Virus record (IMG/VR): IMGVR_UViG_3300042691_023664
Span: 1 to 26,158 of that record
From: a virus
DNA: 26,158 bases
Direction: 5' to 3' (one strand)
In this document: one piece after another, positions 5,401 through 24,337 of the stretch
Position numbering within the stretch: position 1 is the first letter of the stretch
Layout: every line of letters begins with the position of its first letter
Translations under genes and position numbers: made by a program
The notes under the pieces: generated by a model
The model's input: the letters and a program-made list of their open reading frames with translations, nothing else
What the model was told of the DNA's origin: nothing
Databases searched by the model: none

Positions 5401-8400
5401 GTTGCGTCGTTGTTTTTTCCTATTTTCAATTTTTTATTTTGAGTTATTCCACTCAAATCATCAATTCCGTAACTAGTGAACAAATCTTTTCTTGTAAAAT
5501 AATAGTAAAAGTCATTAATTAATTTGGGGTAAAACCCTAAATTAATATTATCAATTTGTTTAGTAACATTATTTATTACTTGATTTGTCGATTTTTGTAA
5601 AACGTATTGTATTGGGTTATTTTGAAAATCAAATAAATTATATGTATTAGTTGTTAAACTATTGTTTGGACTATAATTTACCTTAAAATCAAAATCTTTC
5701 CAAACATTGTCTAAAATATCCGTTACCCTATTGGATTCAACCCAAACTTTATACCTATGCCATATTGCGCCATATTTTAAAACCCAACTATATGGTACTT
5801 GATGTATTGCCGAAAATTTGTTTAATGTTGCATATAAATAATCAATATCTGTTTGTATTGATGAATTTGAATTACTTATTTTTTTTAATTTATCTTTTGT
5901 TGTAATTAATGGTAATGAATTTAAAAACAAATACCCTAAAGCAACATATGGGTTTTTATCTCCCGCCTTTTCTTTTTTTACTCCTTCAGTTATTGCATTA
6001 ACAAAATAAGGAGTATTAAAAATTGATGTTGTTTGTATTTGTTGCTTAACTTCTCCTGCGTAAGGAGTGTATAATACACCTAATTCGGTAAATTGTAGAT
6101 TGTCACCATTACTAGTTGGGTTCACTCTAAATCGATAGAATTCTTTTAAGTCTGCTCTACTATTAATAGAGTATTTGTCGGTACTTCCAGGTATTCCCAA
6201 AACTTTTTGTGACCCATTTGTAAAACCATTTCTATTAGTTAATAAAGATAATGTTTCAGTACCACTTTGATTTAATCTAGATATAACTTTTTTTTGTGTG
6301 TTAAAATCAAAACTTGCGGTTGTTTGATTTGCGGTTTCAATACTTGTTATTGTGGCTCCGTCTGCCATATTTGTTTGTAACCAAGACAAATTATCAAATG
6401 GAAACGTATCTAAAAAAGATAATTTATTTGATTGTGTACTTTTTAAATAACTTTTAATTTTATCGGCAATGTCAATACCACCAACAACTGTAGGTGATGA
6501 AGAACCTATAGAATCAATACTGTATACTGAATTTTCTATTTTTAATTCATTGTTTATATCTGTTGTTACAAAATTATTTGATTGATAAGTTTTAAAATTA
6601 TTTGTTGAAAAATTTTGTAACTCTACTAATAAATCTGGATATGATTTAATTTGATTTGAAAATAAAGTATTTAAGGTATTATCTGATTCTATCTCATCTA
6701 ATGCATTTTCAGCCTCAAATTGACCAATTAATTGTGAGAGTCCTGCAATTTTTCCATCTCTAACCATTTTGGTGTAGTGAGTATTTAAAAAACACCTTTC
6801 AAATAATTCATATACAAACGAAGCCGGTTGAGGGTTACTGTATGGTGTGTATTTGAATGGAAACTCTAACGCATTAAATGTTGCAAACTTTAATTGATTT
6901 TTAGGGTTGTTGTAGACATTAACAGGTGGTGGTGAATACGTGGTACTAGCCGCTCTTATATAATCCTCTGTAAATTGAACTTCAGGCCAAACTGTTGGGT
7001 TATCTCTTACTGGACAAAAATTTGTTGTTGGGTTGCAGTTAGCGTCCCCAACATATTTTACTTCATAAATTTCTCTTTTATTTTTATCTGTTGTTTTTTC
7101 ATAATATAAGGGCCATGGATAAACAATGGCCTCGTTTTTTAAAGTGCCGGAACTCAATTCAACCGACTTATTATAATCGGGACCAACTTTACCATTAACT
7201 ACTAAATCTAATCTTAATTTATTTTGTCTTTGTGCCCAAGCTCTTTCATGAACATCATCCATCAATTTATAAAAAGCATCAGCACCTGCTAATATTGCAC
7301 AAAACACATTTCGTATAGTTGGTTCAAATCCTAAACTACTTTTATCTGTCACTAAACCACCAAGTATATCTGAAATGTCGTCTTCAACAATTTTTTTTTG
7401 TTTATCTAAAGTTTCTTTACTTTTTTTAATAACATCTAAAAAACTATTTGCAATATAAACTAAACTACCGTCCCATCTTTCTCCAAAAGAAAAAACATTA
7501 GGATTTAAAGTCACTATAGAACTACCATTCCATACTTGTGAAGCAACACCAATCGACGCTTCTTCAGATATTCTAAAATTATCTAATTCTTGTGGTGTTG
7601 GTGTCTGTTTAAATCTATATGTATATGTTTTTTGCCAATCAACTTCACTTTTGAAACTATTTAAATCTACATTGTCTTCTGTTATTTTTTTAAATCCTAC
7701 ATTTTTGTCATAGTTGAATGGTGATATTTTTACTCCCACATTTTTCAACTTACCATTTTTCAACTTTAAATTGAATGTGCTACTACCATCAGGTGCTTGT
7801 CCGAATGCTGGACTGGCTTTCAATTTATTCAAATAAGTTTCGAAAGCAGCTTTGAGGTTGTTTAGTCTCAAATCCCTGTCATTAAAGTTTAAAGAATTTT
7901 TAAAAAAATAATATACCTCATCATTTTTGATAAAAGGTTTAGTAGTATCCAAAAATTTATTTTTACTACTAGTGTAAACAACTGATTCTAAATTTTTTAA
8001 ATTATCTTCATAATCAGAAATATGATTGATTATTTGAAAATCGGCCTCTTTTGCCCTTGCTAGTGCGTTCTTATCATAATTTTCTATTCTTTTTATAAAT
8101 TCTTGTAAATCTATCTCATCAAAACTTGGGTCTATTAATTTTTTATCCTTGTATTGTTTATAAACTTCTTCTAATTTTTGTCTACCTAAATAACTGTTAA
8201 CTTGCGTTTTAGTTGTTTTACCACCACCTTGTGAAATTGTTTTTGTTACTGTCGCCGGTATCATTTTAGGGGCATTTCTTGCATACCCTAAAATTGTATC
8301 AAACAATAACGCATTTAACCTACCAATTAAACTAATATCAATTTCAAAATTTCCATTATCTGATGAAAATTTTGCATTAAATGATTTTAACATTAGTTGT

Positions 8401-9032
8401 AGTCTTATCGCTTTACCATAATAACCTTTAAGTGTTAAATAAAACGCCGGGTATGGTAAATTAAAAAAAACGGAATACATAGAGTTATCCCCTTGTTCAA
8501 ATAAACTTCTTCCCTGAACATCAACTAAAGTCATGTTTACCGTTGGTGTACCTGCAGGTGTTATAGTTACATTGATTGACTTTATACCCAACATTTGGGT
8601 ATCTTCATAATTTAAAACTTTTCTTCTGTATTGCGTTTTACCATCAAAAGCAACGGAGTACTCCGAAGTTTGATTTAGTGCTTTCCCCTCTCTTGATCCT
8701 TTTCCTGTTATTTGATCAGACCAAGACGTATCAAATGCCGTTTTACCTTTAGGTTTTAAAAAACTTAAATTTAAATCTTCATCACCACCCGCAAAACTTG
8801 CAATAGTTGTGTTTACCACCGGATTTGAATCAAAGGCCTCTCCTATCGCTAATTTTGTGCGAGGTATTATTTTAGTCTCTAAATTAGCATAATAAACTAA
8901 ATTTTCTTGTTGTACTAATCTAGGGTCTCCATCCGCATTTTTTTTAGATGTCACCTTGTTAGGATCAATAAGTATTATATTATCATATCCTGTTTCTACA
9001 TATATATCTTCGTTACTATACTTATCTGCCAT
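2460..9032 (-). CDS. Giant baseplate/hub-type structural protein (2190 aa)
   Basis: A 2190-residue protein with no signal peptide or membrane segment, rich in Asn, Ser, Thr and aromatic residues as phage structural proteins often are. Near the N-terminus (about 145-250) a beta-rich domain includes FYLTLKGYYGKAIRLQLML and NFEIDISLIG, a layout I associate with tube-like hub domains. A helical segment at about 570-610 contains PTIRNVFCAIL and KLMDDVHERAW. Near residues 1845-1905 a segment with AVIQPTMYFNLRHVPLF, GPYWISEVKHSI and GFETNFKGIRMPLF resembles the closing part of contractile-tail hub proteins (gp27, gpD, VgrG type), in which a ligand-like entry is followed by a Y-I-x-x-V-x-H strand. 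About 285 further residues follow and contain several cysteines. T4 gp27 is under 400 residues, so if this is the hub it is much enlarged. The start overlaps the gp53-like gene by 11 bases. Baseplate role: likely. Exact equivalence to gp27: inference. Confidence 0.75.
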   Translation of the reverse strand: MADKYSNEDIYVETGYDNIILIDPNKVTSKKNADGDPRLVQQENLVYYANLETKIIPRTKLAIGEAFDSNPVVNTTIASFAGGDEDLNLSFLKPKGKTAFDTSWSDQITGKGSREGKALNQTSEYSVAFDGKTQYRRKVLNYEDTQMLGIKSINVTITPAGTPTVNMTLVDVQGRSLFEQGDNSMYSVFFNLPYPAFYLTLKGYYGKAIRLQLMLKSFNAKFSSDNGNFEIDISLIGRLNALLFDTILGYARNAPKMIPATVTKTISQGGGKTTKTQVNSYLGRQKLEEVYKQYKDKKLIDPSFDEIDLQEFIKRIENYDKNALARAKEADFQIINHISDYEDNLKNLESVVYTSSKNKFLDTTKPFIKNDEVYYFFKNSLNFNDRDLRLNNLKAAFETYLNKLKASPAFGQAPDGSSTFNLKLKNGKLKNVGVKISPFNYDKNVGFKKITEDNVDLNSFKSEVDWQKTYTYRFKQTPTPQELDNFRISEEASIGVASQVWNGSSIVTLNPNVFSFGERWDGSLVYIANSFLDVIKKSKETLDKQKKIVEDDISDILGGLVTDKSSLGFEPTIRNVFCAILAGADAFYKLMDDVHERAWAQRQNKLRLDLVVNGKVGPDYNKSVELSSGTLKNEAIVYPWPLYYEKTTDKNKREIYEVKYVGDANCNPTTNFCPVRDNPTVWPEVQFTEDYIRAASTTYSPPPVNVYNNPKNQLKFATFNALEFPFKYTPYSNPQPASFVYELFERCFLNTHYTKMVRDGKIAGLSQLIGQFEAENALDEIESDNTLNTLFSNQIKSYPDLLVELQNFSTNNFKTYQSNNFVTTDINNELKIENSVYSIDSIGSSSPTVVGGIDIADKIKSYLKSTQSNKLSFLDTFPFDNLSWLQTNMADGATITSIETANQTTASFDFNTQKKVISRLNQSGTETLSLLTNRNGFTNGSQKVLGIPGSTDKYSINSRADLKEFYRFRVNPTSNGDNLQFTELGVLYTPYAGEVKQQIQTTSIFNTPYFVNAITEGVKKEKAGDKNPYVALGYLFLNSLPLITTKDKLKKISNSNSSIQTDIDYLYATLNKFSAIHQVPYSWVLKYGAIWHRYKVWVESNRVTDILDNVWKDFDFKVNYSPNNSLTTNTYNLFDFQNNPIQYVLQKSTNQVINNVTKQIDNINLGFYPKLINDFYYYFTRKDLFTSYGIDDLSGITQNKKLKIGKNNDATFQLPLNGDSTEINRAISLQNFYQYMDAEGNLELNVGNKYFLFPSCGAIDINQAVWESYNETNNKKEELLNNPKMYNGSVRGLWFTGNFGYFDNSVIGKPEPDQYVRLGTLQNNFLGGAPSVGPITYSNIEEIFSLFTPKLLDEFESYFLEFCNPNPTNLALKEEDNATGLKNVEQKSLISQMKNIFFVDKTSVAVSTEDETGKSLLESQVNSMVSGIGNFLNFDCILKIGNPGNFNRLYFADFTDNSSFVLKKLSYGTYNNDLPPDTTILVSQTSSPNNNSAWKTLYKYIGTSTINDVTISNINSYVFSFFKDFNIEFNSNNIENLSQLLKIYVSKKIENSSYTTTNFKTDLANYLTELRTENTDTINEALRYLNNKLKNSNTNTNLTNTSNATYGDILKLETYNVFKNFNDKWVAGSDFKNKLLFEDFLFHDRANVDIGDEYTVDIMKVLTSLKDNDKKSIMDVLSNILTDNNFIFFALPSYINFYGIQSAVVNNQTIPVEIPNSMFATYLNVDYLNSKPKFLCIYVGKQSEYLQTNDTSFSKFGDDSFDMRNQSTNPLRVPASNIDYEKSSPVVGFNVDFGILNQNIFREISSLDMSEKKNTAETFAVNEQMGKAGAGDSVAQQSVSLYSIYKSRSYTCDVKAMGCAVIQPTMYFNLRHVPLFRGPYWISEVKHSISDRGFETNFKGIRMPLFSLPKPQSFLMGVNKSFSERWKKEVTSQREATAVATTSTYEQNLSNAPNPNTNSVCISKTVFDGGSVSFPAKPFIAETKTTILNTDIKTVINGNTTGTDKTDDAFRAWLFGISRTWPSNSVTTTSVSCTQNNLFGISCLNPVPQLNPFFTAQTCSNLVGNEIPIPTFTSTTEPVKFMNQVYKSIVTGPVNSLYGANTAFKTQNDIALSAITATTPVQVLRLACTLTQLKLTAWDTNFAYGKNATDIYNYIITQRTNKALSDTTYLYYVKEFVIAVDNFGSAGGFP

Positions 9033-9361: not shown

Positions 9362-12300
9362 TTAATAAGTAAATTTGTTTTTCAAATTAAAATTATTGTT
9401 GGGTACGTTTTGAGGAGGAGCCAAAAGTTTATAATTGCCACTGTCAGTTTGATTTGTTGGGTTTTGTCTACTAAAATTTAAAGTTCTTTTTATATTAAAA
9501 TCAAAAGGTTTAAATGTTGTCTCATCTTTGAAAAACTTGTACTCTTCTGTTTTTTCTAAATCTTCAATATTAGTATTAATTTGTTTTTTTGATTTTTCAT
9601 AGGTAGTTTTAAGAAAATCAACGTTGTTTTGTAAAAATGTCTTCCATTTACCAATATCTTCTTCTTTAATTCTATCTAGTGTACCGGCATTTTTTCTTGC
9701 GTTTTCAATAAAATCATCAACAAAACTAGGTATATTTAAAATTTCATTATAAAATAACATGAAGAATCTATTTTCAGGACCCTTATCTATTTGTGGACTT
9801 GTGTTATCAAAAATAAAAGTATCAAAATTAAAAGTATTTTCAAATTTACTATTTCCTGCCGGTATAAAATTATAAGCGATTAACTTATTATAATAAGTGT
9901 TTCCTGATGTAGCAACATTATTTACGTCTGATTGTAATTCTTGATAAGCTGAAGTATATGAAACGCTTGATGGTGTTCCTCCCGAAATATCAAATATAAA
10001 TATTTCTCCATTATCTCTTTTATAACCATCTTTACCACTGTATATAAAATTTGTTTGGTCAATTAATTTAACTAACTCCAATTCTTTTTTAGTGATTTTA
10101 ATATTAGCCTCTTCTAATTTTTCTTTTAATATTTCTGAATGTGTTTTGATTAACTTTTTAATATAATTTTTAACACTAAACTTGTTTAAGTTTTTAAAGT
10201 CTTCCAATAACATTCCCGCAAACATAGGACAAAGATCATTTGCAACATCATCAATAGCCCCCGTTTCTAATAATTTTAAATTTTGTGAAATTTTAGTAGA
10301 CACACCAAATAAAAAACTATTATTAATTCCCCCTATATTTCCTGTTGAATATTTTCTTGAATCAGTAAATAAAGACGTTACTCCGATACCGTATTTTTTA
10401 GTTATATCTTTTAATTCACTTTCCACTAACGAAGCATATTCTCTATATTTTTTTGCAAAGTTATTAATGTTTTCTTTGTATTCTATTGTTCCTTTTATTG
10501 AATTATTTGGTATATCTAAAACCCTTTCAACTATAGTTCCAAATGGAACTCCATTATCATTTTCGTTTTGTCTATCTTTTCTATCATTTATTCCAACATC
10601 ATTTAATATTCTATCAATATCCTCTTTACTATAATTACCTTTTACTATTTCTGTTTGGGTTGCTCTTTCATCATACATTTCAGTATTCGCATAGAAATTA
10701 AATGAAAGTGCGTTTTGTAATTGTTGTACTGGTTCGGCTAATCCATGACCACCAATAAAGTTAAAGTTTATTGATACTTCAGCAATCATAGGTTGTAATC
10801 CAATACCTTCAGGATTAATGTCCCACTGACCGTCTTTAGGGTAAGTTAAACTAAGTGAATCAATAACAACTTTTGTATGCCAAAAATCACCAACTCTTAA
10901 CACACATATTGGTGGGGCACCAAAGGCACTATTAAACGCATCTTTGTAGAGTAAAGTTGTTGTATCAGCTCCTGTTTCAACTACCGTTGGTATGGTGTCT
11001 CCCGGTCTCATACATTGTTGTAAAAACACCAACCTTTTATTTAATCCTTCTGGCGTAATTGCATGAAATGCGGGATGAAAATATTTTAATTTTTCTTTTA
11101 ACCCATTATATATCATGGGTGATTCATTATTTAACATTTCAAAATAATCACATTCACAAATTAGTTTTCTTACTAACTTACCTGTCAACTCTTTTTTTAT
11201 TGTTCCATTGTATGAAGGTTCAGGATAAATTATTTCTTCAACGTATTTTGGTTCTGGTTTTGCGTCTCCCCCTTTTTGGTTATTATCTTTAGGTTCGGGT
11301 ACAATAACTTCTTCTTTAGGTGGTGTTGGTATTGGATCTGTTTTTTTGGGTATTGGTACAATTTCGTCAATTGTAATTTTCCTACAAGCGGATCCGTTTA
11401 TTGAATATCTGTTTTCAATGTAATCACTTCCATTATCACCTAATTCTGTTCTAGCAAAAGGTCTACTACAATCAACTCCTGCAAATTTATCCTGTTGAGT
11501 AATTTCATCAAATCCAGCAAAAGTTAGTTTAAATGTTAATGGTTTTGTTGTGTCACAAGTCCCTTTTGTGTGGTCATAAGAAAAGAAGTCTTTTAATTTT
11601 TTACCACTAGCAGATGTTACGTCGTATTTTTCCATATATTGAACAAAAGAACTAACCCTTCTATATGATAAATTAACATTATAATCTACTTTATGAAAGG
11701 CGGCCGAACATGTTGCCTTAAAATTCCAACTAAGTGTGTTTCCTCCGTCTAACCAATCTAAAGTTTTTTGAAGAAACTCCCCAACTTTTGAATAAGACTC
11801 TCTACCATAACTAAAAAATTGTCTTATTGAGTTTTCACTTATATCAATATAATTTTTATAAAAGTCTGCACTTTGTCTTAAACTATCATCAGTATTAATA
11901 AATTTTCTTAAAAGTAGGTTATTTTTTGGTGGGTAAACACCTAATTTATTTGAAGTATCTCCATTTAAATTTTTTGCCTGCCTAACATAATACTCTTCAA
12001 CATTAGTTTTTGGGTTGTTATTCCAAGGTTTACCTCCTCCGTCTTTAGGTGCCGGTATTTGCGGCGTACTAGCTAAAGACACATTAAAGTCTGTTTCTAA
12101 ATATTGAGCATAATAAACATCGTATGACGTAAAAGCACTTTTTACAGTTCTATCAGTGTTTTTTCCATCGTCATTAAATCGTGGTTTAGCTTGTTCATAA
12201 TAAAAAACAGGTTTATCTTCTTTGAATTTATTAAACTCTTCGATGTTTGTATTTCCCCCTTCTTCTTTTAAAACTTCTTTTGGTTCTTCTACTATTTCTT

Positions 12301-15300
12301 CTGATGTGACGTTTGGTGGTGTAATTACTTCGGGAACTAACTTTTTTATCACTTGTGGTTCCCCTTTTGTTACTTCCAAAACTTCTTGTATATCTTTCAA
12401 AGTAAAGTAACTATATCTACTCGCCAATTCGTATGGGTCGTATTCTAAACATCCTGCAAAAAAAGAATCAAGTATTCGTGTAAATTTAGATTCTTCTACG
12501 TTTTTCAACTCCTCGGCAACTAATTTATCTAAAATACATGGATGATCAACAACAATTTTGAAACTTAACTTACCCGATCTCTTTGTATTGGTGTAAGTAT
12601 AAATTGGTTCTGTTCTACCCAAAAAGGTGTTTGGGTTCCAATCAGTACTTACGCTCTCATCAAATGAAACGTCATATGGCGGAAACCACATTATCCTACC
12701 TCCGTTTGGTCCTCTTTCACATAAGGCCAAATCTTCATAAGTAAGTCCTGGTCTATTAGATGTTCTCCATGCTAAATTTTCCAAAGAAATCATATACTTT
12801 TTAACTCCTCCAGGAAATATATTTGTAGAGTCACCATTGGCACTATTTCTCATAGGTCCAATATTTAAGTTGTAGGTATTATCAAATACTGAATTTTTAT
12901 ATTTTCTAATATTACCTGAAGTTTTTTGTAAATTACCGTATAAAACATAAGGATCGTCTTTTGTCCATACTCTACAATACTCTAAACCTTCAGGTACACC
13001 TCCAGCAACTGTTGACTTATCTACTGAATTTTTAGTTCTCCATTTTACAACTCTAGAACCTTTAGTCATTTCAGTGTACCCGTCGTTGAAAACTTTCGAT
13101 ATTTGATTAATTGCCGTTCCTACGTGTCTTTGTCTTTTATCGTCATTACCAATATCATTTGCAACTTCAACTATTCTTTGAGTAAAGTCCAAAATAGATC
13201 CTTTAGTAAAGTTTTTTTCTAAATTACCTGATATATTCTTTTTTAATGCGTCTTGAAATGAGTTTGATTTAGTTTTAAAACTAGCACTTTTGAACTCAAC
13301 ACCGCCAGGTCCTACTTTTTTTCCAATTTGTGGTTTAGTGTTACCAAAATTATCACCCCAAGTGAAACCACCTTGTAAATCTCCACCATCAAAATCATTT
13401 ATTGATTCAACACCAAACCTTGTAGTTTCATAAAGTTCTCCTTCAAAAATTCTAGCAAACTCACCTGAACCATAAACATTCATTTCAACTCTATTTCCAA
13501 ACCCAAGTTTTGGTAATTCTTTTTCAGAAACCAATCCTTGTATAAATGTTTTTCTTGATCCTATATAAAAATTAGGATCGGGAGCAAACACATTAGGGTC
13601 TCTAAAAGAGTTTAATTTATAATCAGGTCTATAGGTATTATATTTAAGTTGTGTGAATAATTCTTTTTGTGTTCCTGAACCTGTATTCGCTAAAAATAAT
13701 TCAGAAGCGGTTTTTATATTAAGTGATGTTATACTATTCCAAGTGTTAGTAAGTGGTTTTGTAAATAATGCACTTACAGGGTTATCCGTTACTTGAGTTA
13801 AAAATCTTTCGGTTGGGTAATCGAAATACTCTCCAGGTATAAATGAATAAGGAGAATAAAGTCCGGCTAACTTAGCTGCAAAATTTAACGTTTTACCGAT
13901 TATTAAATCAGGAACACTTATACTCCAATTTCTTTCAATAAGAGGTATATTACCGGTAGCTAACCCTAATACATCAAATGGATCTGTATTTGGTTTTACA
14001 GAAAGTTGTGTAGAATTAAAACCATCAGGTTGAGTAAATGATGTGTCTAAAAAATTAACTCTGTCTAATGTTTGTTGTAGTAATTCGGCAGTTACTCTAT
14101 ATGCAAATTCTTTTTTTAATCTGTCAGCAGCAAATGAAGCCAAAGAAGAGTCTTGACTAATTTTTCCTGAGTCACCTTGCGGATCTTCTTGAATTAATAT
14201 AGCGTATGGAGTATAAAAAGATGAAATAAAAGTTCTTGGTGTTACTCCAGTGTCGTTTGAGTATGGTTGATTCAAGAGTAGTGTTGGTAAATCCTCAACT
14301 AAAACAGTTTCAGGATTTCCGTACCCCGTTTCAGGAACGTATGTGTTTTTTACGTAAGCATCTCCTAATTCTACTTCTGCATTTATTTCTAAATTACTAT
14401 TGTTTGCAACATTTTGATTGTATGCATCATATTCACCTTTATCATAATTTCCTGGTTGATTTAGGTTTTCTATTTTTTCATCATCTAATATATCATATTG
14501 TGTTGACCCATAACCATTTTGTCCGTCTTCAGGTTTATATAGATTAGTATTGTATGCTTGAATTGCTTTGTTTTTACCATAAACAGTTTCTAAAAGACTT
14601 CCTTGCGCATCGGTTGACTTGTCGTACTCACCATCAACTTGTGTTGAAAAAGATTCTCTAACCCCTTGTGTGTCGTTATTTATTTCATAGTTTGTACCTC
14701 CGTATGATGTTGGTTTGTATTGGTTAGCATTGTATTGTTCCCCTCTTGCGGGACTTGCAATGTTTGATAATGCGTTTAATTCTATCCATTGTTCGTTACC
14801 TGCAGTTACATCATACGCACCTGAACCCGTAGTTAAACTATTATTAATGTTAAAATTTATATCCCAATTTACTGAACCATATTGAGTACCAGCAGGTGTG
14901 TATATATTTAATGGAGCTAAATTAAACAACAAAGTCTGTTGAGCATTAATTGAAACATAATTTGTTTCAATCCAAGATAGATTGGATGCCGTTTGATCGT
15001 AATTAACACCTCCTTGTGTTAATTGATTATATGTGGCATTCCAAATATCATATCTTGTTGATCCATAAAAATCATTACCTTGTAGTTGTGGTTTCCAAAG
15101 GTTTATTTGATAATAAATGTTTTCTTGTTCATTACCTTTTGTTGTGACATAATTTTGATTAATCCAATTTAAATCTCCCGCTCTATCGTCGTACTCACCA
15201 AAACCAGTTGTAATAGTATTAACTATGTCGTAATTAATATCCCAATTAACATTTCCATAAAATTGTAAACCTAAACCTGTAGAGACAGGTTTATAAATAT

Positions 15301-16201
15301 TTGTTTGATATAGTATCGCCTCTTGCTGATTACCTTTTATAGATAATGCGTTTGATTCTATTACTTGTTGCGACTGTGTCGAATTATCATAAACAAATAA
15401 CCCATTTCCAGGCGTTGTAAATAATCCCTCGTCATCGTAATTAATATCATATTCTACACCGTTTGGTACAATTAACCTAAACTTGTTTTTAATTGTATTA
15501 TCAAAAAATTCCACAGATCCTACAACTGAAACATTATTGTTACTTACCCAAAATGGATCTAACCCTCTTTGTATATAATTTCCAAAACCTGTTGTATCAA
15601 TTACCTCATCATCGTTAATATCATAAGAAGTATCACCATAATCAGCACCTGAAGGGTAATATGTGTTTTTTGTTTTTAATAATATTTCTTGTTGATTACC
15701 GACTTGTTCAAGTTCATTGTTAAATGTGTCACTAATATCGTACACATCATTTTTATTACCTTTTTGTAAATCATTATTAATATCATATCTTGAAACACCA
15801 TACCCTTGCCCATCAACTGTTGGTACATAAATATTTTTAACGTAAAGTAGTGTTTCTTGAAAATCCCCGTTTTTTTCTAACTGACTTTGTATTGTTTTAG
15901 ATAGATTATAATTACCTTCAGGTGATTTAAAATTTTGATCTTTATTAATATCAACAGTATCACCATATGAAGGATCGTTTGGTCCGTATTGGTTTTTTGT
16001 TATTAATACTCTTTCTTGTTTTTCACCAATGTCTTCAACAGACGGAGAGTCGGACACACTATAGTTTACTAATATTAATTCACTGCGTGCGACATTTTCT
16101 TCAAAACTTGGACCTCCTTTAGTTTTATATGGGGGTAAGTTTATTGATAGTAATTTTTTTCTAAAATTCTCACTTGCGTCAAACGATAATGGGCTTTCCA
16201 T
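9362..16201 (-). CDS. Giant tail tube initiator / baseplate protein with N-terminal repeats (2279 aa)
   Basis: A 2279-residue soluble structural protein with at least five regions. (1) Residues about 60-640 hold nine degenerate YDIN-type repeats. (2) Residues about 660-790 are mixed helical. (3) Around 1138-1223, RIMWFPPYDVSFDE, FLGRTEPIYTYTNT and LSFKIVVDHP form a beta domain that resembles the Gly-Arg-x-Glu-Pro strand pattern of tube-initiator/tail-terminator-type proteins. (4) Residues about 1330-1600 look like an interrupted, degenerate OmpA-like fold (YNVNLSYRRVSSFVQYM at 1503-1519). (5) Around 1706-1845, YFHPAFHAITPEGLNKRL, then WDINPEGIGLQPM, IGGHGL and LQNALSFNFYANTEMYD. Two Pro/Glu/Lys-rich linkers (about 1278-1318 and 1618-1665) separate domains. 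It follows the tape measure gene, which is where T4 has genes 48 and 54 (tube cap and tube initiator), so I infer a fused, enlarged tube-initiator/baseplate protein. The start follows an A/T-rich leader with a strong promoter motif. Confidence 0.75.
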   Translation of the reverse strand: MESPLSFDASENFRKKLLSINLPPYKTKGGPSFEENVARSELILVNYSVSDSPSVEDIGEKQERVLITKNQYGPNDPSYGDTVDINKDQNFKSPEGNYNLSKTIQSQLEKNGDFQETLLYVKNIYVPTVDGQGYGVSRYDINNDLQKGNKNDVYDISDTFNNELEQVGNQQEILLKTKNTYYPSGADYGDTSYDINDDEVIDTTGFGNYIQRGLDPFWVSNNNVSVVGSVEFFDNTIKNKFRLIVPNGVEYDINYDDEGLFTTPGNGLFVYDNSTQSQQVIESNALSIKGNQQEAILYQTNIYKPVSTGLGLQFYGNVNWDINYDIVNTITTGFGEYDDRAGDLNWINQNYVTTKGNEQENIYYQINLWKPQLQGNDFYGSTRYDIWNATYNQLTQGGVNYDQTASNLSWIETNYVSINAQQTLLFNLAPLNIYTPAGTQYGSVNWDINFNINNSLTTGSGAYDVTAGNEQWIELNALSNIASPARGEQYNANQYKPTSYGGTNYEINNDTQGVRESFSTQVDGEYDKSTDAQGSLLETVYGKNKAIQAYNTNLYKPEDGQNGYGSTQYDILDDEKIENLNQPGNYDKGEYDAYNQNVANNSNLEINAEVELGDAYVKNTYVPETGYGNPETVLVEDLPTLLLNQPYSNDTGVTPRTFISSFYTPYAILIQEDPQGDSGKISQDSSLASFAADRLKKEFAYRVTAELLQQTLDRVNFLDTSFTQPDGFNSTQLSVKPNTDPFDVLGLATGNIPLIERNWSISVPDLIIGKTLNFAAKLAGLYSPYSFIPGEYFDYPTERFLTQVTDNPVSALFTKPLTNTWNSITSLNIKTASELFLANTGSGTQKELFTQLKYNTYRPDYKLNSFRDPNVFAPDPNFYIGSRKTFIQGLVSEKELPKLGFGNRVEMNVYGSGEFARIFEGELYETTRFGVESINDFDGGDLQGGFTWGDNFGNTKPQIGKKVGPGGVEFKSASFKTKSNSFQDALKKNISGNLEKNFTKGSILDFTQRIVEVANDIGNDDKRQRHVGTAINQISKVFNDGYTEMTKGSRVVKWRTKNSVDKSTVAGGVPEGLEYCRVWTKDDPYVLYGNLQKTSGNIRKYKNSVFDNTYNLNIGPMRNSANGDSTNIFPGGVKKYMISLENLAWRTSNRPGLTYEDLALCERGPNGGRIMWFPPYDVSFDESVSTDWNPNTFLGRTEPIYTYTNTKRSGKLSFKIVVDHPCILDKLVAEELKNVEESKFTRILDSFFAGCLEYDPYELASRYSYFTLKDIQEVLEVTKGEPQVIKKLVPEVITPPNVTSEEIVEEPKEVLKEEGGNTNIEEFNKFKEDKPVFYYEQAKPRFNDDGKNTDRTVKSAFTSYDVYYAQYLETDFNVSLASTPQIPAPKDGGGKPWNNNPKTNVEEYYVRQAKNLNGDTSNKLGVYPPKNNLLLRKFINTDDSLRQSADFYKNYIDISENSIRQFFSYGRESYSKVGEFLQKTLDWLDGGNTLSWNFKATCSAAFHKVDYNVNLSYRRVSSFVQYMEKYDVTSASGKKLKDFFSYDHTKGTCDTTKPLTFKLTFAGFDEITQQDKFAGVDCSRPFARTELGDNGSDYIENRYSINGSACRKITIDEIVPIPKKTDPIPTPPKEEVIVPEPKDNNQKGGDAKPEPKYVEEIIYPEPSYNGTIKKELTGKLVRKLICECDYFEMLNNESPMIYNGLKEKLKYFHPAFHAITPEGLNKRLVFLQQCMRPGDTIPTVVETGADTTTLLYKDAFNSAFGAPPICVLRVGDFWHTKVVIDSLSLTYPKDGQWDINPEGIGLQPMIAEVSINFNFIGGHGLAEPVQQLQNALSFNFYANTEMYDERATQTEIVKGNYSKEDIDRILNDVGINDRKDRQNENDNGVPFGTIVERVLDIPNNSIKGTIEYKENINNFAKKYREYASLVESELKDITKKYGIGVTSLFTDSRKYSTGNIGGINNSFLFGVSTKISQNLKLLETGAIDDVANDLCPMFAGMLLEDFKNLNKFSVKNYIKKLIKTHSEILKEKLEEANIKITKKELELVKLIDQTNFIYSGKDGYKRDNGEIFIFDISGGTPSSVSYTSAYQELQSDVNNVATSGNTYYNKLIAYNFIPAGNSKFENTFNFDTFIFDNTSPQIDKGPENRFFMLFYNEILNIPSFVDDFIENARKNAGTLDRIKEEDIGKWKTFLQNNVDFLKTTYEKSKKQINTNIEDLEKTEEYKFFKDETTFKPFDFNIKRTLNFSRQNPTNQTDSGNYKLLAPPQNVPNNNFNLKNKFTY
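14280..16025 (-). repeat. Nine degenerate protein repeats of about 55-65 residues within the 2279 aa protein
   Basis: The core pattern is a Q-E-x-L-L-Y strand, then N-x-Y-x-P, then Y-G-x-x-x-Y/W-D-I-N-x-D, then a Gly-x-Gly-x-Tyr-Asp turn and often a W-I-x-x-N strand. The D-I-N signature or its variants occur near residues 83, 139, 193, 251, 320, 384, 446, 505 and 569. Spacing is regular at about 54-69 residues. The copies are divergent at DNA level, so they are old duplications and not a recent expansion. The Asp/Asn-rich turns could bind calcium, but that is inference. Confidence 0.8.
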
Positions 16202-16248: not shown

Positions 16249-18261
16249 TTAAAGGTTACCCAGTTTTTCACTGTAAGATTTACTTAATCTTTCATTAACA
16301 ATATTCATTACGTTTTCTTTAAACATCCTTTGAAAGTTAGGATCTGATTCTAAAATATTCGCCAAAGACCCGTTAAGCCCTTCTATTTTTAACTTAACCT
16401 CTCCATTTACACCAACATCACCTTTTACTTCATTAGTTGAGGTGGTATTTACGTTGACCATGTTTGAAAGTTTGTCTGAACTCATATTTTTAGTTAATAA
16501 GTCTTGCAGTGTTCCAATATTTTTTGAATCAATGTTTTTCATTGTGTTCAGAATAGAAAACGCCCCCTGAGAGTCATTTATAAATTCACTGATATTGGGG
16601 GCCGCAAGAATGTCGTCTCCTGGATCTGTTGTAAATGAACCAAAACTACCTGTGATTAAATTACCACCTTTCATGGTTGACGGTACATATAAATCACTCG
16701 CAGTACTTACAGTGGTGATTTGTGTTTTAACAGCCTCAAATACATTTGTTATTTGTCCAGCGATATTTGTTAATTGTGTAATCACTTCGTTCAAATCTGT
16801 CTGAAATTCAACCCCTATAAGATACATATTAAATGCGTTATTAGCTTTTGTTATAAATTCTTCAACTCCAGTTAATATTCTTCCTCCCTCATCTGCAACT
16901 CTTTTAGCTGCAGTTTCTACCGCACTAATTCTCATTGTTTCATAATATTCATCAGCCATTTTTGAACCTCTTTCATACCCCGTTTCTTTCGAAAAAATTA
17001 AAGAATTTGCCATTTTTTGAAGTGCGTTTGCCGCCTTTTCTGATGATGACAATTGGGCTTCTGCCGATTTTTCATTTTTTGACATCATGTCTTTCATTGT
17101 ACTATCAATTGACCCTAATTTTTCACCGTCGGTTCTATTAGCTTCTGTTTGGGCATTTTTAAATTCAGTTAATTGAGACTCTTGTACTTTACTTAAATCA
17201 ACCCAATCTTTAGTTCCAGGTAATTGTACTTGAAATCTTCCGTCTTTAACTTCGGCCATAGACGCTAGTAATCTTTTGTCCTCTTCTGTCATTCCAGCAC
17301 TAAAAGAAGTTTGGGCCATCACCTCTTGTTCTTTTCTTGCGCTAATTGCCGACCTTGCTACGTCTTCGTATTTCATTCCTAGTTGATCAGCCATTTCTTT
17401 CAATCGGTACATTTGCTGAGTACCAATTTTAAATTGTCCTGTTTCTTTGTTATATTCGGCAGATGCTGCAGCAACTTTAATAAATTCGTTTTGTAACCCC
17501 TCAACATCATTTTGAGCCATGTATAACAATTTAAAGGGGTCCCCAAGTGCACCAATATTTCCTCCCAACATTTGCATACCTGATGCCATCTCAATAGCCT
17601 TTTCAGGGTCTAACGCTTTTTCTGCTGTTGCCATTATTTCATCAAACTTAATTCCAAGTTGTTGAGCCCTAGCAACCATATTAGTCAGTCCTTGAACCCC
17701 ATTTTTAAATTGGTATGTGTTTGTTTTTTCTAAATTTGTCATTACTTCTTTTGTAAGTTTGGTAGCATTTAAACCAAACCCTTTAGCAGTATTGTACATT
17801 TTAGTTAGGTAAATTTGAGATTGTTGTTGTCCCATACCAACTTTAGAAAATTCGGCAGTATATCCAGCCAATTCTTTTACACTTATACCTGTCAAATTAG
17901 ATAAATAAATTGTGTTTTTAATCATCTCGTCTTGAAGTGTAGGTATTCTTCCTGTTTGATCAGCAAATCCAGACATTATTTCCATAACATCTTTCATTTC
18001 AACACCAAAATCCTGAGTATTTTTCATGATATCAAAAACTTGACGTTCCAAAATGTCGGCGTAACCAGTAACACCACCAAAAGATCTAGAAAAGACTTGA
18101 GCACTTTCTTCTAATTTAACAAAAAAGGTTTGGTATCGATTGTAATCTAATGCGTCTGAAAGAGCGGATTTTAAATCTGTTTTGAATTGATTTATTCCAA
18201 AACTACTTCCAACCTGATCGGTGTATGCTCCGGTTGCTTTCTGTGTGTTTCCTAAAAACAT
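16249..18261 (-). CDS. Tail tape measure protein (gp29-like)
   Basis: A 670-residue, mostly helical protein matching the tape-measure pattern: a helical N-terminal region with ERQVFDIMKNTQDFGVEM (about 69-86), MEIMSGFADQTGRIPTLQ, ISVKELAGYTAEFSKVGM and AIEMASGMQMLGG. These are the repeated helix-turn blocks of TP901-type tape measures. The C-terminal 60 residues (EVKGDVGVNGEVKLKIEG, then a helix) are the beta-strand plus helix tail common in phage tape measures. It occupies the tube lumen during assembly and sets tail length; at about 0.15 nm per helical residue, 670 residues imply roughly 100 nm, close to the T4 tail. No membrane segment or lysozyme domain is evident. It sits directly after the chaperone pair and before the tube-initiator-like gene, the expected order. 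A promoter motif lies 8 bases before the ATG. Confidence 0.88.
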   Translation of the reverse strand: MFLGNTQKATGAYTDQVGSSFGINQFKTDLKSALSDALDYNRYQTFFVKLEESAQVFSRSFGGVTGYADILERQVFDIMKNTQDFGVEMKDVMEIMSGFADQTGRIPTLQDEMIKNTIYLSNLTGISVKELAGYTAEFSKVGMGQQQSQIYLTKMYNTAKGFGLNATKLTKEVMTNLEKTNTYQFKNGVQGLTNMVARAQQLGIKFDEIMATAEKALDPEKAIEMASGMQMLGGNIGALGDPFKLLYMAQNDVEGLQNEFIKVAAASAEYNKETGQFKIGTQQMYRLKEMADQLGMKYEDVARSAISARKEQEVMAQTSFSAGMTEEDKRLLASMAEVKDGRFQVQLPGTKDWVDLSKVQESQLTEFKNAQTEANRTDGEKLGSIDSTMKDMMSKNEKSAEAQLSSSEKAANALQKMANSLIFSKETGYERGSKMADEYYETMRISAVETAAKRVADEGGRILTGVEEFITKANNAFNMYLIGVEFQTDLNEVITQLTNIAGQITNVFEAVKTQITTVSTASDLYVPSTMKGGNLITGSFGSFTTDPGDDILAAPNISEFINDSQGAFSILNTMKNIDSKNIGTLQDLLTKNMSSDKLSNMVNVNTTSTNEVKGDVGVNGEVKLKIEGLNGSLANILESDPNFQRMFKENVMNIVNERLSKSYSEKLGNL

Positions 18262-18287: not shown

Positions 18288-18470
18288 TTACTTTCTTTTT
18301 TCATATTCTTTTATTAACTTATCAATGAAATATTTTCTTTCATAAGTTGGCATTTTCAAAAGGTCAGAATAAGAAAAATTACCGTGTTTTATTAAATAAT
18401 AAAACTCATCTAAAAGAATTTTTTGATAATTAGAAGAAAGGACGAAAAAATTCAGCCCCAAAGGAAACAT
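18288..18470 (-). CDS. gp51-like / tape-measure chaperone T domain (60 aa if translated alone)
   Basis: The informative part is about residues 14-60: YQKILLDEFYYLIKHGNFSY followed by SDLLKMPTYERKYFIDKLIKE. It is a short helical domain with a P-x-x-x-R motif before the last helix. I know this pattern from the second half of tape-measure chaperones (the T of lambda-type G/GT) and from baseplate hub assembly proteins of the gp51 kind. The family binds the tape measure and helps the tube form around it. The frame overlaps the end of the gp26-like gene by 41 bases in another frame. The ATG at 18470 directly follows a TGA in the same frame. The first 12 residues of this ORF are probably not a natural N-terminus, because they mirror the upstream coding sequence. 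Expression is more likely by ribosomal frameshift as a fusion, or possibly by re-initiation. Confidence 0.75.
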   Translation of the reverse strand: MFPLGLNFFVLSSNYQKILLDEFYYLIKHGNFSYSDLLKMPTYERKYFIDKLIKEYEKRK

Positions 18471-18473
18471 TCA
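18430..18473 (-). other. Candidate programmed frameshift (+1 or -2) overlap
   Basis: The window between the in-frame TGA of the downstream frame (18473-18471) and the TAA of the gp26-like frame (18432-18430) is 44 bases. To pass from one frame to the other, the ribosome must shift +1 or -2. Two slip-prone sites lie inside: TTT GGG GCT, where Gly-tRNA can move one base along GGGG, and GAA TTT TTT CGT, where Phe-tRNA can move from UUU to UUC. Lambda-type phages use -1 and Mu uses -2 at this same gene pair. Confidence 0.5.
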
Positions 18474-19182
18474 AAGTTACCTTTTCTCCAGACGGGGCTA
18501 TAATTTCTCTTTTTAGGTCAACTTTAGGTTCACACTCATTTAAAAACTTTCTTAAAAATTTAGAATCGGCGATTGGTAATTGTGGAATGATTTTAGTCAC
18601 ATAATCTTTTTGTTCGTTATCGTCTATTGATATAATTTGCTTTTCCAATCTTTTTGTTGCTGCAGGAGCAATAAATCCTTTTGGGTATGTTTGAATAATT
18701 TTTTCCAATTCATTTTGGTCACCCATATTCATTATCTTACAAACAACTTTGTGTCCACTTTTAGGTAAGGTAGTTGTAAAATAACCTTGTTCGTTTGGTT
18801 CGTGCATTGCTGGAACATAATCAACGGAATCTAAAATAATTGCCCCTTCAAATTCTTTTCCTGTTGCAGGATCTATTAATGTAAAATTATATTCGGGACC
18901 AAAAGATGTGTTTCTTAAAAATACCAATATTGCTTGTACATCAGCATCAATTAATTCATTAATATCAAAGTTAGGTTCATATATTTTTTGTCTTAAAAGT
19001 CTTGAAATTATCCCGTCTGTTCCAATGTTTGGTGATAATAAAATATTCTCATCTTCGGCGGTTAAGTATCCGACTTTTAATGATTCTTTTTTATTTCTAT
19101 AAAACTTACCCTTACTAGGTAGTTTAATTACATCATGAGGTAGACTAAAATCCATTTGTCCGTAAGCTGCAGTATTATCCAT
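18430..19182 (-). CDS. 26: gp26-like baseplate hub / tape-measure chaperone (250 aa)
   Basis: A 250-residue soluble protein. The first half has the pattern I associate with the T4 gp26 family: VIKLPSKGKFY (18-28), LTAEDENILLSPN (40-52), a helix IISRLLRQKI (58-67), the acidic DINELIDADVQAILVFLR (73-90) and FGPEYNF. The second half is charged, with KIIPQLPIADSKFLRKFL and a final beta strand ending in FFRPFF. The family helps assemble the hub and load the tape measure. It lies next to the tape measure gene, with the gp51-like frame between, the same layout as the G/GT pair of long-tailed phages. It is preceded by a terminator (19220-19252) and a promoter motif, so it starts its own transcription unit. 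The start ATG has an A/T-rich leader and no Shine-Dalgarno site. Confidence 0.8.
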   Translation of the reverse strand: MDNTAAYGQMDFSLPHDVIKLPSKGKFYRNKKESLKVGYLTAEDENILLSPNIGTDGIISRLLRQKIYEPNFDINELIDADVQAILVFLRNTSFGPEYNFTLIDPATGKEFEGAIILDSVDYVPAMHEPNEQGYFTTTLPKSGHKVVCKIMNMGDQNELEKIIQTYPKGFIAPAATKRLEKQIISIDDNEQKDYVTKIIPQLPIADSKFLRKFLNECEPKVDLKREIIAPSGEKVTLNVSFGAEFFRPFF

Positions 19183-19219: not shown

Positions 19220-19252
19220 GTAAACAAAAAACCCCACTTTGTTAGTGAGGTT
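19220..19252 (-). terminator. Intrinsic terminator after the tail tube gene
   Basis: Minus-strand RNA would pair AACCUCAC (19252-19245) with GUGGGGUU (19237-19230), eight pairs including one G-U, around a seven-base loop, followed by UUUUUGUUUA. The G-U pair would be a C-A mismatch in plus-strand RNA, so the direction is minus. It lies 27 bases past the tube stop codon. A terminator here fits a highly expressed, separately transcribed tube gene. Confidence 0.8.
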
Positions 19253-19279
19253 CTTAATAAAATATTTACATTTATTTTT

Positions 19280-19768
19280 TTAGTAAACTAAAATACATCT
19301 ATCAGGTCTTAGTGTTGCTTTAACTGTTACAATTTTTTCATCACTATAATCTAATGAATCCATATCAACCCCTGTTAAAAACACTCCTTGTAGGATCCAT
19401 TTTTCAACGGCAACTCCTGTTGGGTCTAGCATTTCTAATGTAAGGTCTCTTTTATAACCTGCAGCATATCCCATACGTCCTGTAATTGATTCTGCGTGTA
19501 GACGAACCCATTCCATAAGTGCTTGTGCTGCTGAAGGTCCGATAGGGTCTAAGAACGTAACATCCATAGATTCCCAATTAAATCTACCTGCAACATATGT
19601 AGAAGTATTTAAAAACGGTATTTCAACCTCACCGATTTTAATTTTTGGTCTTGAAGTACTTGTAACGTACCAAGAGTTGATTCCTAATGGTGAAGGAAAC
19701 GTAAGTATAAATCTATTTTTCTTTTTAGGTTCATACGTTAGGGGCATTTTCATTAATAAATCAGCCAT
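19280..19768 (-). CDS. 19: Tail tube protein (gp19-like)
   Basis: A 162-residue beta-rich protein, the same length class as T4 gp19 (163 aa), with the tube-protein order: an N-terminal strand KKKNRFILTFPS (15-26), the loop around TSTSRPKIKIGEVEIPFLNT, then WESMDVTFLDPIGPSAAQAL, a central helix, and strands DLTLEMLDPTG, WILQGVFLTGVD and EKIVTVKATLRPDRCILVY. It polymerises in hexameric rings on the tube initiator, inside the sheath, guided by the tape measure. It forms a single-gene unit: a perfect promoter motif lies upstream, and a strong terminator lies downstream. The upstream gap of 110 bases is among the longest in the window. In T4 this gene directly follows the sheath gene; here a 46-residue ORF and a HAD phosphatase gene lie between. 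Confidence 0.93.
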   Translation of the reverse strand: MADLLMKMPLTYEPKKKNRFILTFPSPLGINSWYVTSTSRPKIKIGEVEIPFLNTSTYVAGRFNWESMDVTFLDPIGPSAAQALMEWVRLHAESITGRMGYAAGYKRDLTLEMLDPTGVAVEKWILQGVFLTGVDMDSLDYSDEKIVTVKATLRPDRCILVY

Positions 19769-21106: not shown

Positions 21107-24100
21107 TTATACATCATCAAATGATGCTCCTGCCGGTGTAATAACAAATTCTATATCTATATATTCTAAAGCTCTTGTAGGTTTTAAGAATATTTTACCA
21201 GTCATAGTATTTGAATCTAAATCTTCAGCCGCACTTGATACTTGTACTCTAAAGTCAATTAAACCTCTTTCTCTTCTAATTTCATCCAAGATTGGGTTAA
21301 CGGAGTCTAAGAATTGTTGTCTAACTTTATCGTCGTTTTGTTCAAATAATAATCTAACCGCAACTGCTGAAATCAATTTTCTTGCTTGTAACAGTAATCT
21401 TCTAACGTTGATTCTGTCAAGTGCAGATTCTCTAATTTGTAAAGTTTTATTACCCCAAATTACAGTACCAATATCTGTAAATGTTGCAATAGGATTAATT
21501 CTACCTTTATAAAGAGTGTCTCTATCGTCCTGAGTTAATCTTTTTCTTGCTTGAACAGCATTTACAACACCTCTTGTGTAACCCGCAGATGCAAACCATG
21601 GCTTGAATATCTTATCAGTGTATGCTAAGTTTTTAACTACTTCACCTGTTGCCGGTATCCATATTTGTTCATTATTTTCCGTGTCATTTTTTAAAATCCA
21701 AGGATAATAAGTGGCGGTATAGTTTGAATCAATTGCAGTGTCTTCCAAGTTTTCAACAACACTTTCAGGGAAATATAAATTGTCATTTAAATTATTAATT
21801 GCTGCTGTGGTAAACAAATTGTAATCTGCAGTTGTACAAATATATATAGAATCGGCCCTATCCCTTTCAACCATTTCAATCGCTTCTTCAACCAAATTTG
21901 AATTATTATAATAATCAATACCAGGAGTTGTAAAAATATTGATGTCAACCGCCTCAGGATTAGCAAAAGTTTTTTGTCCCCATAGGTAAGCGTAATAATC
22001 AGTATTAGCCCAAATTTCTTGATTTGGTCCTGTAATTCTTCTAAACGCTCCCCATCCAGTTGCGTTAGGGTATGTGGCGTCTGATTTATAACCTTTTAAG
22101 AAATTAGTTCCTCCTAATGCAAATCCGTCACCATTTGTTCTCCATTTTCTATAAATGTCCCATCCGTCAAATCCACCAGCAAATAATAATGTGAATTTTC
22201 TAGCATTCAATCCGTAGTAAGGATCTGAAGTACTTGTTGGGTTAGTTTGAAAACTCGCTTCTCCAACGAAGAATTTAGAATCTCCCGAAGTTGGTCCATT
22301 ACCTCCTATCAATACAACAGTTGCTCCACTATCCATATGGAAACCTTTGGTTACATAGTTCCATTCAGTCCCTTCACCTGTTGCCAAATTTGTTGGTGCT
22401 TGTTTTCCTCTATATGTTAATTGATCAAAATCATATCCTAACTGAGATGAAACACCTAACTGTACATTTCTTTTTCTATCACCACTTGCTCCTGCTCTAA
22501 TTTCACCTCCGAAGAAATATGAAAACGGTGGGCTGTATTTTAAACCATTAGGTCCGTAATATAATGTTTTAAAGTTCAAGAATGGTGGTTTAGCAGAACC
22601 GTAAGATCTTTGTACTAAACCTTCAAATCCTGCAGGTACCGCATCTGTCGGTGCTTCTTCACTTAATTCTATCATAACGTATCTAGACCTCAATGGGAAT
22701 TCTCCATTTGACGTACCTATTTTTTTAGCAACATATGAGTTACTTGTTGGGTCCATAGTACAATTAGAAAATCTATCTAATACAAGTTGACTAGAGTCTG
22801 TATCGTTAAAATCTCTAACAACAACATCGAATGTGTTATTATCTAAATCAATATTGGCTAATGTAATTTTAAATCTAAAGTTTGCATTTGTACCGTCAGA
22901 GATAGTTATTAACTTAAATAGTTTATAAACTTTATTACCTCTTAGTTCAGAAACAATAAATGGGGTTTCTGGTGTTTGGTATTTTTCTAAGTTGTAAGCT
23001 ATTGTATTTGTATTAGGAGTATTTCTTAATCCCGGTAAAGCAACTAAAGTAGAATTTAAACCTCTAATTTTATTTTGTAGATAACCTTCAGATAAAAAAG
23101 TAGGATACGCTTCCTCAACAAATATAGGAAAATCATCAGAGTTAAGTGAACCATTAAAGTTGGTTGTTCCTAATGTTTTTGCTATAAAATTTGTTTGACT
23201 ACTTGCCATTGAAACGTCAAAAGAAAAAGAACTATTTGTACCATCTGTCGTTGTTCCTGTTATTAAAAATGAAGAATAAGGATCTTTAGAGATTCCGGAA
23301 TAAACACCAGTACCTACCATTCCTACAGATGTTGTCGCACTTACTTTATAAACAGGTCCATTATCACTTGCGTAAGTACCCACACCTCTTGAACGTAATG
23401 TTGCAACAACAACATCATCATAATCAGTATAACTACTACCTGTATATAATGTACCATAAACTCTAACAGTACCTGAGTATGAACCACCACCTGTAGATGT
23501 AATTGCTGAAACAACAATACCGAAACCACTTCCTGTGTAAGTTTGGGGTCCTATTATACTGAAAAGAGATGAGTACCAAATATCATTTTGACCTGACGTA
23601 TAATCTAATGAAGTACTTATAACGTCCTCAACTCCAAAAACATTTTCGTAAATATTAACACCTGAAGGATTATACGATGAACCAGTAAGAACGTTAAACG
23701 TTTGTTGTGAAACTGAACCAAAGAACAGTGCAGTTCTACCTGAAAGAGAAGAACTTGAACTAACATTTGATATTTCATTATAAATGTAATTTGCAAAGTC
23801 TTCAGATAATGTAGTTTGCCCACCATCAGGATTAATGTAAGGTAAATTAATATTTGGTATAAATGCTGGTATAGATGAGGTATAAGCTATAGTTGATGTA
23901 CCACCAGTTGATCCTGTAAAAGTAAAAGTAGTTAATCCTGCAGGATATGATGGTAAAATTGCAGATATTGTTTCTCCGTCAATATTTGCGATTGTTGTTA
24001 TTGACCAAGAAGGACCGGCGTCATATCCTGACAACCCTAAAACTCTAGTAACATAGAGTTGATTTGATTCTTCAAGATAAGCCTTTGCTATATATGCTGC

Positions 24101-24337
24101 TTCATATTTTGGTATACTTGTATCAACAAATTTTGCTGGGCTTGTACCCTTGTCTCCGTTACCAAAAACAGAAACAAACTCATCATAATCTTTTATAAAA
24201 ATAGGTTCGAAAGCGGGACCCTGAAGAGTCTCACCAACAATACCCAAAGTTGTAACACCAACACTCTGTGTTACGAATGTTAAGTCTCTTTCGGAAGTAT
24301 ATACTCCTGGAGATACAAAAACTTTTCCACTTGCCAT
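21107..24337 (-). CDS. 18: Tail sheath protein (gp18-like), enlarged
   Basis: A 1076-residue contractile sheath subunit. The N-terminus has the typical SPGVYTSERDLTF (9-21), GVTTLGIVGETLQGPAF (27-43), the F-x-x-V-F-G-N loop (54-60) and YIAKAYLEESNQLYVTRVLG (82-101). The C-terminal core holds LFAGGFDGWDIYRKW (near 720), VRRLLLQARKLISAVAVRLL (near 980) and the closing strands GKIFLKPTRALEYIDIEFVI. N- and C-terminal arms link neighbouring subunits in the known sheath mesh. T4 gp18 has 659 residues; the excess here is mostly a Gly/Ser/Thr-rich beta region at about 105-430, probably one or more outward-facing domains. It forms a single-gene unit, with a promoter motif upstream and a hairpin downstream. 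The start has an A-rich leader without a Shine-Dalgarno site. Confidence 0.93.
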   Translation of the reverse strand: MASGKVFVSPGVYTSERDLTFVTQSVGVTTLGIVGETLQGPAFEPIFIKDYDEFVSVFGNGDKGTSPAKFVDTSIPKYEAAYIAKAYLEESNQLYVTRVLGLSGYDAGPSWSITTIANIDGETISAILPSYPAGLTTFTFTGSTGGTSTIAYTSSIPAFIPNINLPYINPDGGQTTLSEDFANYIYNEISNVSSSSSLSGRTALFFGSVSQQTFNVLTGSSYNPSGVNIYENVFGVEDVISTSLDYTSGQNDIWYSSLFSIIGPQTYTGSGFGIVVSAITSTGGGSYSGTVRVYGTLYTGSSYTDYDDVVVATLRSRGVGTYASDNGPVYKVSATTSVGMVGTGVYSGISKDPYSSFLITGTTTDGTNSSFSFDVSMASSQTNFIAKTLGTTNFNGSLNSDDFPIFVEEAYPTFLSEGYLQNKIRGLNSTLVALPGLRNTPNTNTIAYNLEKYQTPETPFIVSELRGNKVYKLFKLITISDGTNANFRFKITLANIDLDNNTFDVVVRDFNDTDSSQLVLDRFSNCTMDPTSNSYVAKKIGTSNGEFPLRSRYVMIELSEEAPTDAVPAGFEGLVQRSYGSAKPPFLNFKTLYYGPNGLKYSPPFSYFFGGEIRAGASGDRKRNVQLGVSSQLGYDFDQLTYRGKQAPTNLATGEGTEWNYVTKGFHMDSGATVVLIGGNGPTSGDSKFFVGEASFQTNPTSTSDPYYGLNARKFTLLFAGGFDGWDIYRKWRTNGDGFALGGTNFLKGYKSDATYPNATGWGAFRRITGPNQEIWANTDYYAYLWGQKTFANPEAVDINIFTTPGIDYYNNSNLVEEAIEMVERDRADSIYICTTADYNLFTTAAINNLNDNLYFPESVVENLEDTAIDSNYTATYYPWILKNDTENNEQIWIPATGEVVKNLAYTDKIFKPWFASAGYTRGVVNAVQARKRLTQDDRDTLYKGRINPIATFTDIGTVIWGNKTLQIRESALDRINVRRLLLQARKLISAVAVRLLFEQNDDKVRQQFLDSVNPILDEIRRERGLIDFRVQVSSAAEDLDSNTMTGKIFLKPTRALEYIDIEFVITPAGASFDDV

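Follow-up and report, generated by a model that had tools for sequence, protein, structure and literature searches.

Do two overlapping reading frames lying directly upstream of a putative tape measure gene represent two genes, or a single gene read in two frames? The question is raised by the minus strand of a 26,158-nucleotide stretch of viral DNA (IMG/VR record IMGVR_UViG_3300042691_023664, positions 1 to 26,158; hereafter the window, at its full length), in which a gp26-like frame, frame A (250 amino acids, 19182-18430), overlaps a second frame, frame B (60 codons, 18470-18288). As the initial annotation had claimed, the overlap is exactly 41 bases long and frame B stands in the +1 register relative to frame A, which is equivalent to -2. 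The TGA-ATG at the start of frame B (18470) is as described, yet it is not the frame's only ATG, contrary to what had been thought: a second one, at 18353, encodes the Met of MPTYER. The two slip-prone motifs singled out earlier, GGGG (18459-18456) and UUUUUUC (18450-18444), both fall inside the overlap. We consider it probable that the locus is a chaperone gene of the lambda G/GT type within the T4 gp26/gp51 family, whose long product would arise through a +1 slip at UUU_UUU_CGN. Its elements are as follows:

18430..19182, minus strand: gp26-like short tail assembly chaperone (G-like, TAC-N), 250 amino acids, zero frame; phrog_150 2.2e-8, PF12322 3.1e-4 (below Pfam's cut-off).
18288..18470, minus strand: frame B, +1 register, stop to stop including the stop codon; its C-terminal part is the T-like, or gp51 C-terminal, domain.
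18444..18450, minus strand: predicted slip site UUU_UUU_C(GU); TTTTTTCG is invariant in 104/104 distinct junctions.
18291..18443, minus strand: frame-B codons joined to the predicted fusion, 51 residues VLSSNYQK...EKRK (T-like domain), from the +1-step translation and profile matches.
18288..19182, minus strand: predicted long chaperone (GT-like, T4 gp51 equivalent), 297 amino acids, made of 246 zero-frame and 51 frame-B residues.
18493..18498, minus strand: 5' arm GCCCCG of a stem that is conserved upstream of the slip site (RCCCC, five conserved pairs), found unprompted by RNAalifold.
18455..18460, minus strand: 3' arm UGGGGC of the same stem; its GGGG ends 8 nucleotides before the slip codon.

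The nature of frame B is best approached through the protein family. The two profile hits of the short protein count as a sequence match to the gp26/gp51 family, and an AlphaFold2 model of the short protein alone (pLDDT, the predicted local distance difference test, of 83) matches models of T4-type gp26 proteins, for example those of SP-15 and Aeromonas phage 25. Compared with the PDB, the same model has no solved-structure match at E<=0.001, and a shared fold with the lambda gpG family is unsupported by this comparison. When frame B is appended by a +1 step, the phrog_150 score rises from 34.8 to 45.1 bits, and residues 13-290 of the fusion match positions 11-276 of 282 collinearly through the junction, T4 gp51 itself reaching 280. 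Because the fusion both raises the score and extends the match to 276/282, frame B is, by profile comparison, the counterpart of the in-frame C-terminal domain of T4 gp51. T4 gp26 and gp51 both match PF12322 and phrog_150 strongly and are sisters in the family tree. Profiles of the T-like domain, with E-values for a set of about 20 sequences, join the window's clade with Mel-JY01, immuto and KVP40, and the cyanophage domain with T4 gp51. Aligned by hhalign to T4 gp51 on its own, the T-like domain gave no significant hit, being too diverged for a direct match; the link to T4 gp51 therefore rests on the full-length profile and on the KVP40 and cyanophage intermediates.

How widely is this arrangement kept? 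In IMG/VR, the short protein as query recovered 70 relatives and a profile recovered 80 loci, with some overlap between the two sets; the window's clade comprises 142 loci at 45-100% identity, with 104 distinct junctions. In all 104, the register of frame B is identical to that of the window. The consensus at the crossover is UUY GGG GYN GAN UUU UUU CGN, with GGG replaced by GGU in one junction, and UUU_UUU is invariant and followed by CGN throughout. A further selection, made with a 24-base DNA pattern alone, gave 71 distinct sites with usable flanks, some on contigs already seen. At every one of them the +1 frame is open for at least 49 codons, the other alternative frame closing at a median of 12, and a CCCC element is present about 48 bases upstream although it lies outside the search pattern. 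Bacterial and archaeal genomes yielded no exact match to this extended-site pattern. Within the window, TTTTTTCGNCC is present once versus 0.11 expected, and the 13 long open reading frames (ORFs; 8,198 codons) contain a single in-frame TTT-CGN. Kept in 104/104 junctions and 71/71 pattern-selected sites, the register and the slip site are conserved far beyond chance. A -1 frameshift is ruled out in the window's clade, where the -1 frame closes early: instead of a canonical heptamer X_XXY_YYZ of the lambda type, the whole clade has the +1 arrangement, and -1 is found in other lineages only.

The pattern of substitutions indicates what is being conserved. Synonymous constraint was scored for 120 codon columns; the nine highest values all belong to residues 229-250, the last 22 codons of frame A, and columns before residue 228 have a median score of 0.10 bits. 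Each wobble base of the zero frame doubles as the second base of a frame-B codon; one and two codons upstream of UUU_UUU these positions change freely (entropy 1.33 and 1.15 bits), and from UUU_UUU onward, apart from the wobble of CGN, little variation is left. Downstream of the site, frame B evolves as coding sequence (entropy by codon position 0.95/0.79/1.42). The zero-frame codon that follows the slip codon is CGN in every distinct junction and CGG in 64 of the 104; elsewhere in the clade's gp26-like gene, CGG makes up 0.4% of Arg codons and AGA 79%, and in the window's 13 long ORFs CGN accounts for 17 of 257 Arg codons. At the level of the aligned sequences, register, conservation, RNA-level constraint and homology can be taken as established. 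Of the two motifs proposed initially, UUUUUUC is taken as the slip site. A slip at GGGG is ruled out, since in two relatives, L009 (six identical junctions) and L099, frame B is interrupted by TAG after GGGG and one codon ahead of the slip site; GGGG is nevertheless conserved.

From these patterns we infer the shift itself, its direction and efficiency, and the role of the upstream stem. Most ribosomes would complete the 250-residue short chaperone. In a minority, peptidyl-tRNA-Phe would sit on the second UUU (18447-18445), with the slowly decoded Arg codon, CGU in the window (18444-18442), in the A site. The P-site tRNA would then re-pair from UUU to UUC, skipping base C 18444, and the ribosome would go on to read 51 frame-B codons, producing the 297-residue long chaperone with its T-like tail. 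The probable stimulator of the shift is a 5-bp stem (RCCCC/GGGGY) with its 3' arm 8 nucleotides upstream of the slip codon. By analogy with what is known of the lambda G/GT family, both proteins would act as tail assembly chaperones.

The stem was the single conserved element returned by RNAalifold, which found no conserved structure 3' of the slip site; a downstream stimulator was rejected. Its five-pair core pairs in 133 of 134 representatives versus 126 after shuffling (0/10,000 shuffles as high), in a comparison where relatedness is uncontrolled. At the outer pair, G-C, G-U and A-U all occur and A/C never does (0/134, 5 expected), and one representative, L149, shows a compensating double change. 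A six-pair shuffle test on the first 73 representatives was not significant (476/5,000), and the sixth pair (-43/-10) has no support. The Gly of the stem arm is encoded by GGG in 103/104 distinct junctions versus 11.7% elsewhere in the gene. With the slip codon in the P site, the GGGG arm would lie in the exit channel; re-formation of the stem behind the ribosome could then exert a pull on the mRNA, of the kind described for the 5' stem of T4 gene 60 (PMC5009743). GGGG may also play a role like that of a Shine-Dalgarno (SD) sequence, against which stand the 8-nucleotide spacing, unlike that of prfB, and the lack of SD leaders in the window's genes: leaders of its 13 long ORFs are A/T-rich with no clear SD sequence, like those of Bacteroidota phages. 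A pseudoknotted pairing GGAGAA/UUCUUC was ruled out by inspection, an A at -36 standing opposite C in 9/73 representatives. Between the stem arms, at window positions 18484-18492 (minus strand; UCUGGAGAA), the codons TCW GGA GAA (UCWGGAGAA) are under synonymous constraint throughout the clade; neither a pairing nor any other role was found for this segment.

Beyond the window's clade, more distant T4-type relatives carry the T-like frame in either of two registers: +1 in Bacillus phage SP-15, LIS04, GXN1, Flavobacterium phage immuto, LR756508, Mel-JY01 and RM378, and -1 in XacN1, RAS14, PA5oct, Atu_ph07, LR756511, KVP40 and the cyanophage-type Kyanoviridae. With few exceptions, their crossover lies at or beside the same aromatic pair (Phe-Phe), mostly after UUU_UUU or U_UUU_UUC. 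On the gp26 tree, the +1/-1 label requires two changes, the deep branches being uncertain. Public annotations of SP-15, immuto, Mel-JY01 and P-SSM2 place a short separate ORF, truncated in some, at the T-like domain; LIS04 and S-PRM1 have no annotated gene there (annotation set L071, L073, L075, L076, L166, L170).

Several observations weigh against the explanation given above. CGN is partly forced by frame B, which requires its C. The UUUUUU of the window's clade would permit a -2 slip too, and the +1 model has no need of an invariant first UUU. In LIS04, +1 re-pairing would be poor (UUU to UUA). Frame B contains an ATG at 18470 in the window and one before the site in 25/73 representatives. 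Finally, covariation in the stem is limited to one end pair and the L149 double change, with relatedness uncontrolled.

The first of these difficulties to form an explanation of its own is a -2 frameshift, in which peptidyl-tRNA-Phe would slip back two bases within UUUUUU and give the same fusion with one extra Phe. It would account for the invariance of UUUUUU down to the wobble base of the first UUU, and -2 shifting is on record in phage Mu (PMC5009743). Relatives in the same register tell against it: GXN1 (UUC_UUU_CGU), immuto (UUU_CUU_UGG) and LR756508 (UUU_CUA) offer no plausible -2 re-pairing, and the usual +1 mechanism fits a slow A-site codon better. Because these three phages allow +1 but not -2, we favour +1 for the window, and regard -2 as an unlikely, though serious, competitor.

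Far less probable is that frame B is a small gene in its own right, with its start at ATG 18470 (at TTG or GTG in relatives) and a free T-like peptide as its product. The TGA-ATG at 18470 has AAAAGG upstream, and short separate ORFs are annotated there in public records; given the frame-B ATG before the site in the window and other representatives, separate initiation might occur in some phages, with a small chance of it in the window's own phage. However, among 73 representatives, three (L009, L099 and L104) lack any frame-B ATG, GTG or TTG upstream of the site, and thus upstream of the conserved part, 45 have GTG or TTG only, and the remaining 25, the window included, have ATG. The potential starts themselves are explained by frame A, the window's ATG as a by-product of zero-frame Asn-Val (AAT GTT) and the TTG of most relatives as a by-product of Phe-Gly (TTT GGG). 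Frame B is unconstrained in the codons just upstream of the slip site, and the synonymous constraint falls on the site. In addition, relatives have -1 heptamers at the same place, T4 gp51 has the domain fused, and the leader at 18470 does not resemble those of the window's 13 long ORFs, which are A/T-rich. Slippage during transcription of the U6 run, giving mixed mRNAs, would agree with the invariance of U6 in the clade, but it can practically be set aside: six U is a short run for slippage by bacterial polymerase, same-register relatives have UUCUUUC or UUUCUUUGG, and the CGN codon and upstream stem would be left unexplained. Programmed +1 frameshifting at UUU_UUU_CGN is therefore the reading we retain, and the initial proposal of G/GT-type recoding in a gp26/gp51 system finds strong comparative support in the register, the slip site and the profile match.

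The surroundings of the locus are those of a tail gene cluster. As in gp26/gp51 chaperones, the gp26-like gene lies between tail tube and tape-measure-like genes:

19280..19768, minus strand: tail tube protein, directly upstream of the gp26-like gene; phrog_4542 5.6e-25.
16249..18261, minus strand: putative tape measure protein, 670 amino acids, directly downstream of the chaperone locus, named from its position and a weak match (3.5e-8) to the long protein that follows the Mel-JY01 chaperone.

Between the tail tube and gp26-like genes (19222-19255, minus strand), a hairpin followed by T-rich sequence can be seen by eye; a scan did not call it, and in SP-15 a terminator is annotated at the corresponding position. 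Elsewhere on the minus strand are a tail sheath protein of 1,076 amino acids (21107-24337), whose sheath match is confined to residues 761-1073, with the first 760 residues unassigned, and two giant ORFs in the tail region, 2460-9032 (2,190 amino acids; no PHROG match at E<=0.01) and 9362-16201 (2,279 amino acids). The tail region ends with a single-strand DNA binding protein (487-1338, minus strand; phrog_1192, 8.7e-10), possibly T4 gp32-like.

T4 is the listed exception to the tail-chaperone frameshift in reviews (PMC5009743), and its own family has apparent frameshifters. With predicted +1 and -1 frameshifters at a single homologous point inside the gp26/gp51 family, the two-gene state of T4 looks derived. 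Programmed +1 shifts are rare in bacteria, and this system offers well over a hundred natural variants which, together with a well-defined slip site and an RNA element as candidate stimulator, make it directly testable. The comparison also shows the T-like domain of these phages to be missing from public records or cut short in them. More speculatively, and with rather less confidence, the site could be a self-contained +1 cassette of new design, combining UUU_CGN, with its rare A-site Arg codon, and a short stem that re-forms just behind the ribosome and pulls on the mRNA, so advancing the ribosome by one base; it would serve a large T4-type clade, with the Phe-Phe crossover switched between +1 and -1 within the family and replaced by gene duplication in T4.

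Some precedent for frameshifting in the chaperone genes of T4-like phages is already published. Vladimirov, Gautam and Davidson reportedly identified the T4 chaperones in 2022 (Virology 566:9) and are said to have argued for a mechanism other than frameshifting. A summary statement of that result gives one short and one fused long gene (PMC10885494), and a passage citing the same work mentions poly-T -1 signals in T4-like chaperone genes (PMC12846349). Cyanophage gp51 was described as only about 20% of normal length (PMC3037559). The G/GT shift is widely conserved in long-tailed phages except T4, and -1, -2 and +1 shifts all occur (PMC5009743).

Compared with lambda gpG/gpGT, the window shares a short and a predicted frameshifted long product, overlapping frames between the tail tube and tape measure genes, a shift near the end of the short gene, and the lack of a well-spaced gene for either domain. 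Lambda however shifts by -1, whereas the window's register is +1 (or -2), and the short protein here is of the gp26/PF12322 type, with no solved structure matched. T4 gp26/gp51 belong to the same PF12322/phrog_150 family, which the T4 proteins match strongly and the window protein weakly, and the +1 fusion aligns across the whole gp51-type profile; in T4, the long form is instead a separate in-frame gene, 51, divergent from 26, a short protein and its long paralogue being made without a frameshift. Cyanophages, KVP40 and jumbo phages, with gp26 and a short "gp51", have the same gene order, the Phe-Phe crossover and a T-like tail in another frame, but use a -1 register on U_UUU_UUC or U_UUU_UUU. 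Phage Mu has a tail chaperone with the same net register through -2, which belongs to another protein family and is not the favoured direction in the window. The closest mechanistic parallels are +1 cassettes, namely prfB (CUU_UGA), Listeria phage PSA and the tail chaperone of archaeal HSTV-2, which very likely uses +1 (PMC5009743): there, as proposed here, the P-site tRNA re-pairs one base forward beside a slow A-site codon. In the window this codon is the sense codon CGN instead of a stop and, unlike prfB, the site has no SD-like element at the prfB spacing but a conserved upstream stem. The novelty lies in the predicted +1 variant, slip site, A-site codon and stem included, and in a shift direction that has changed at a single homologous point.
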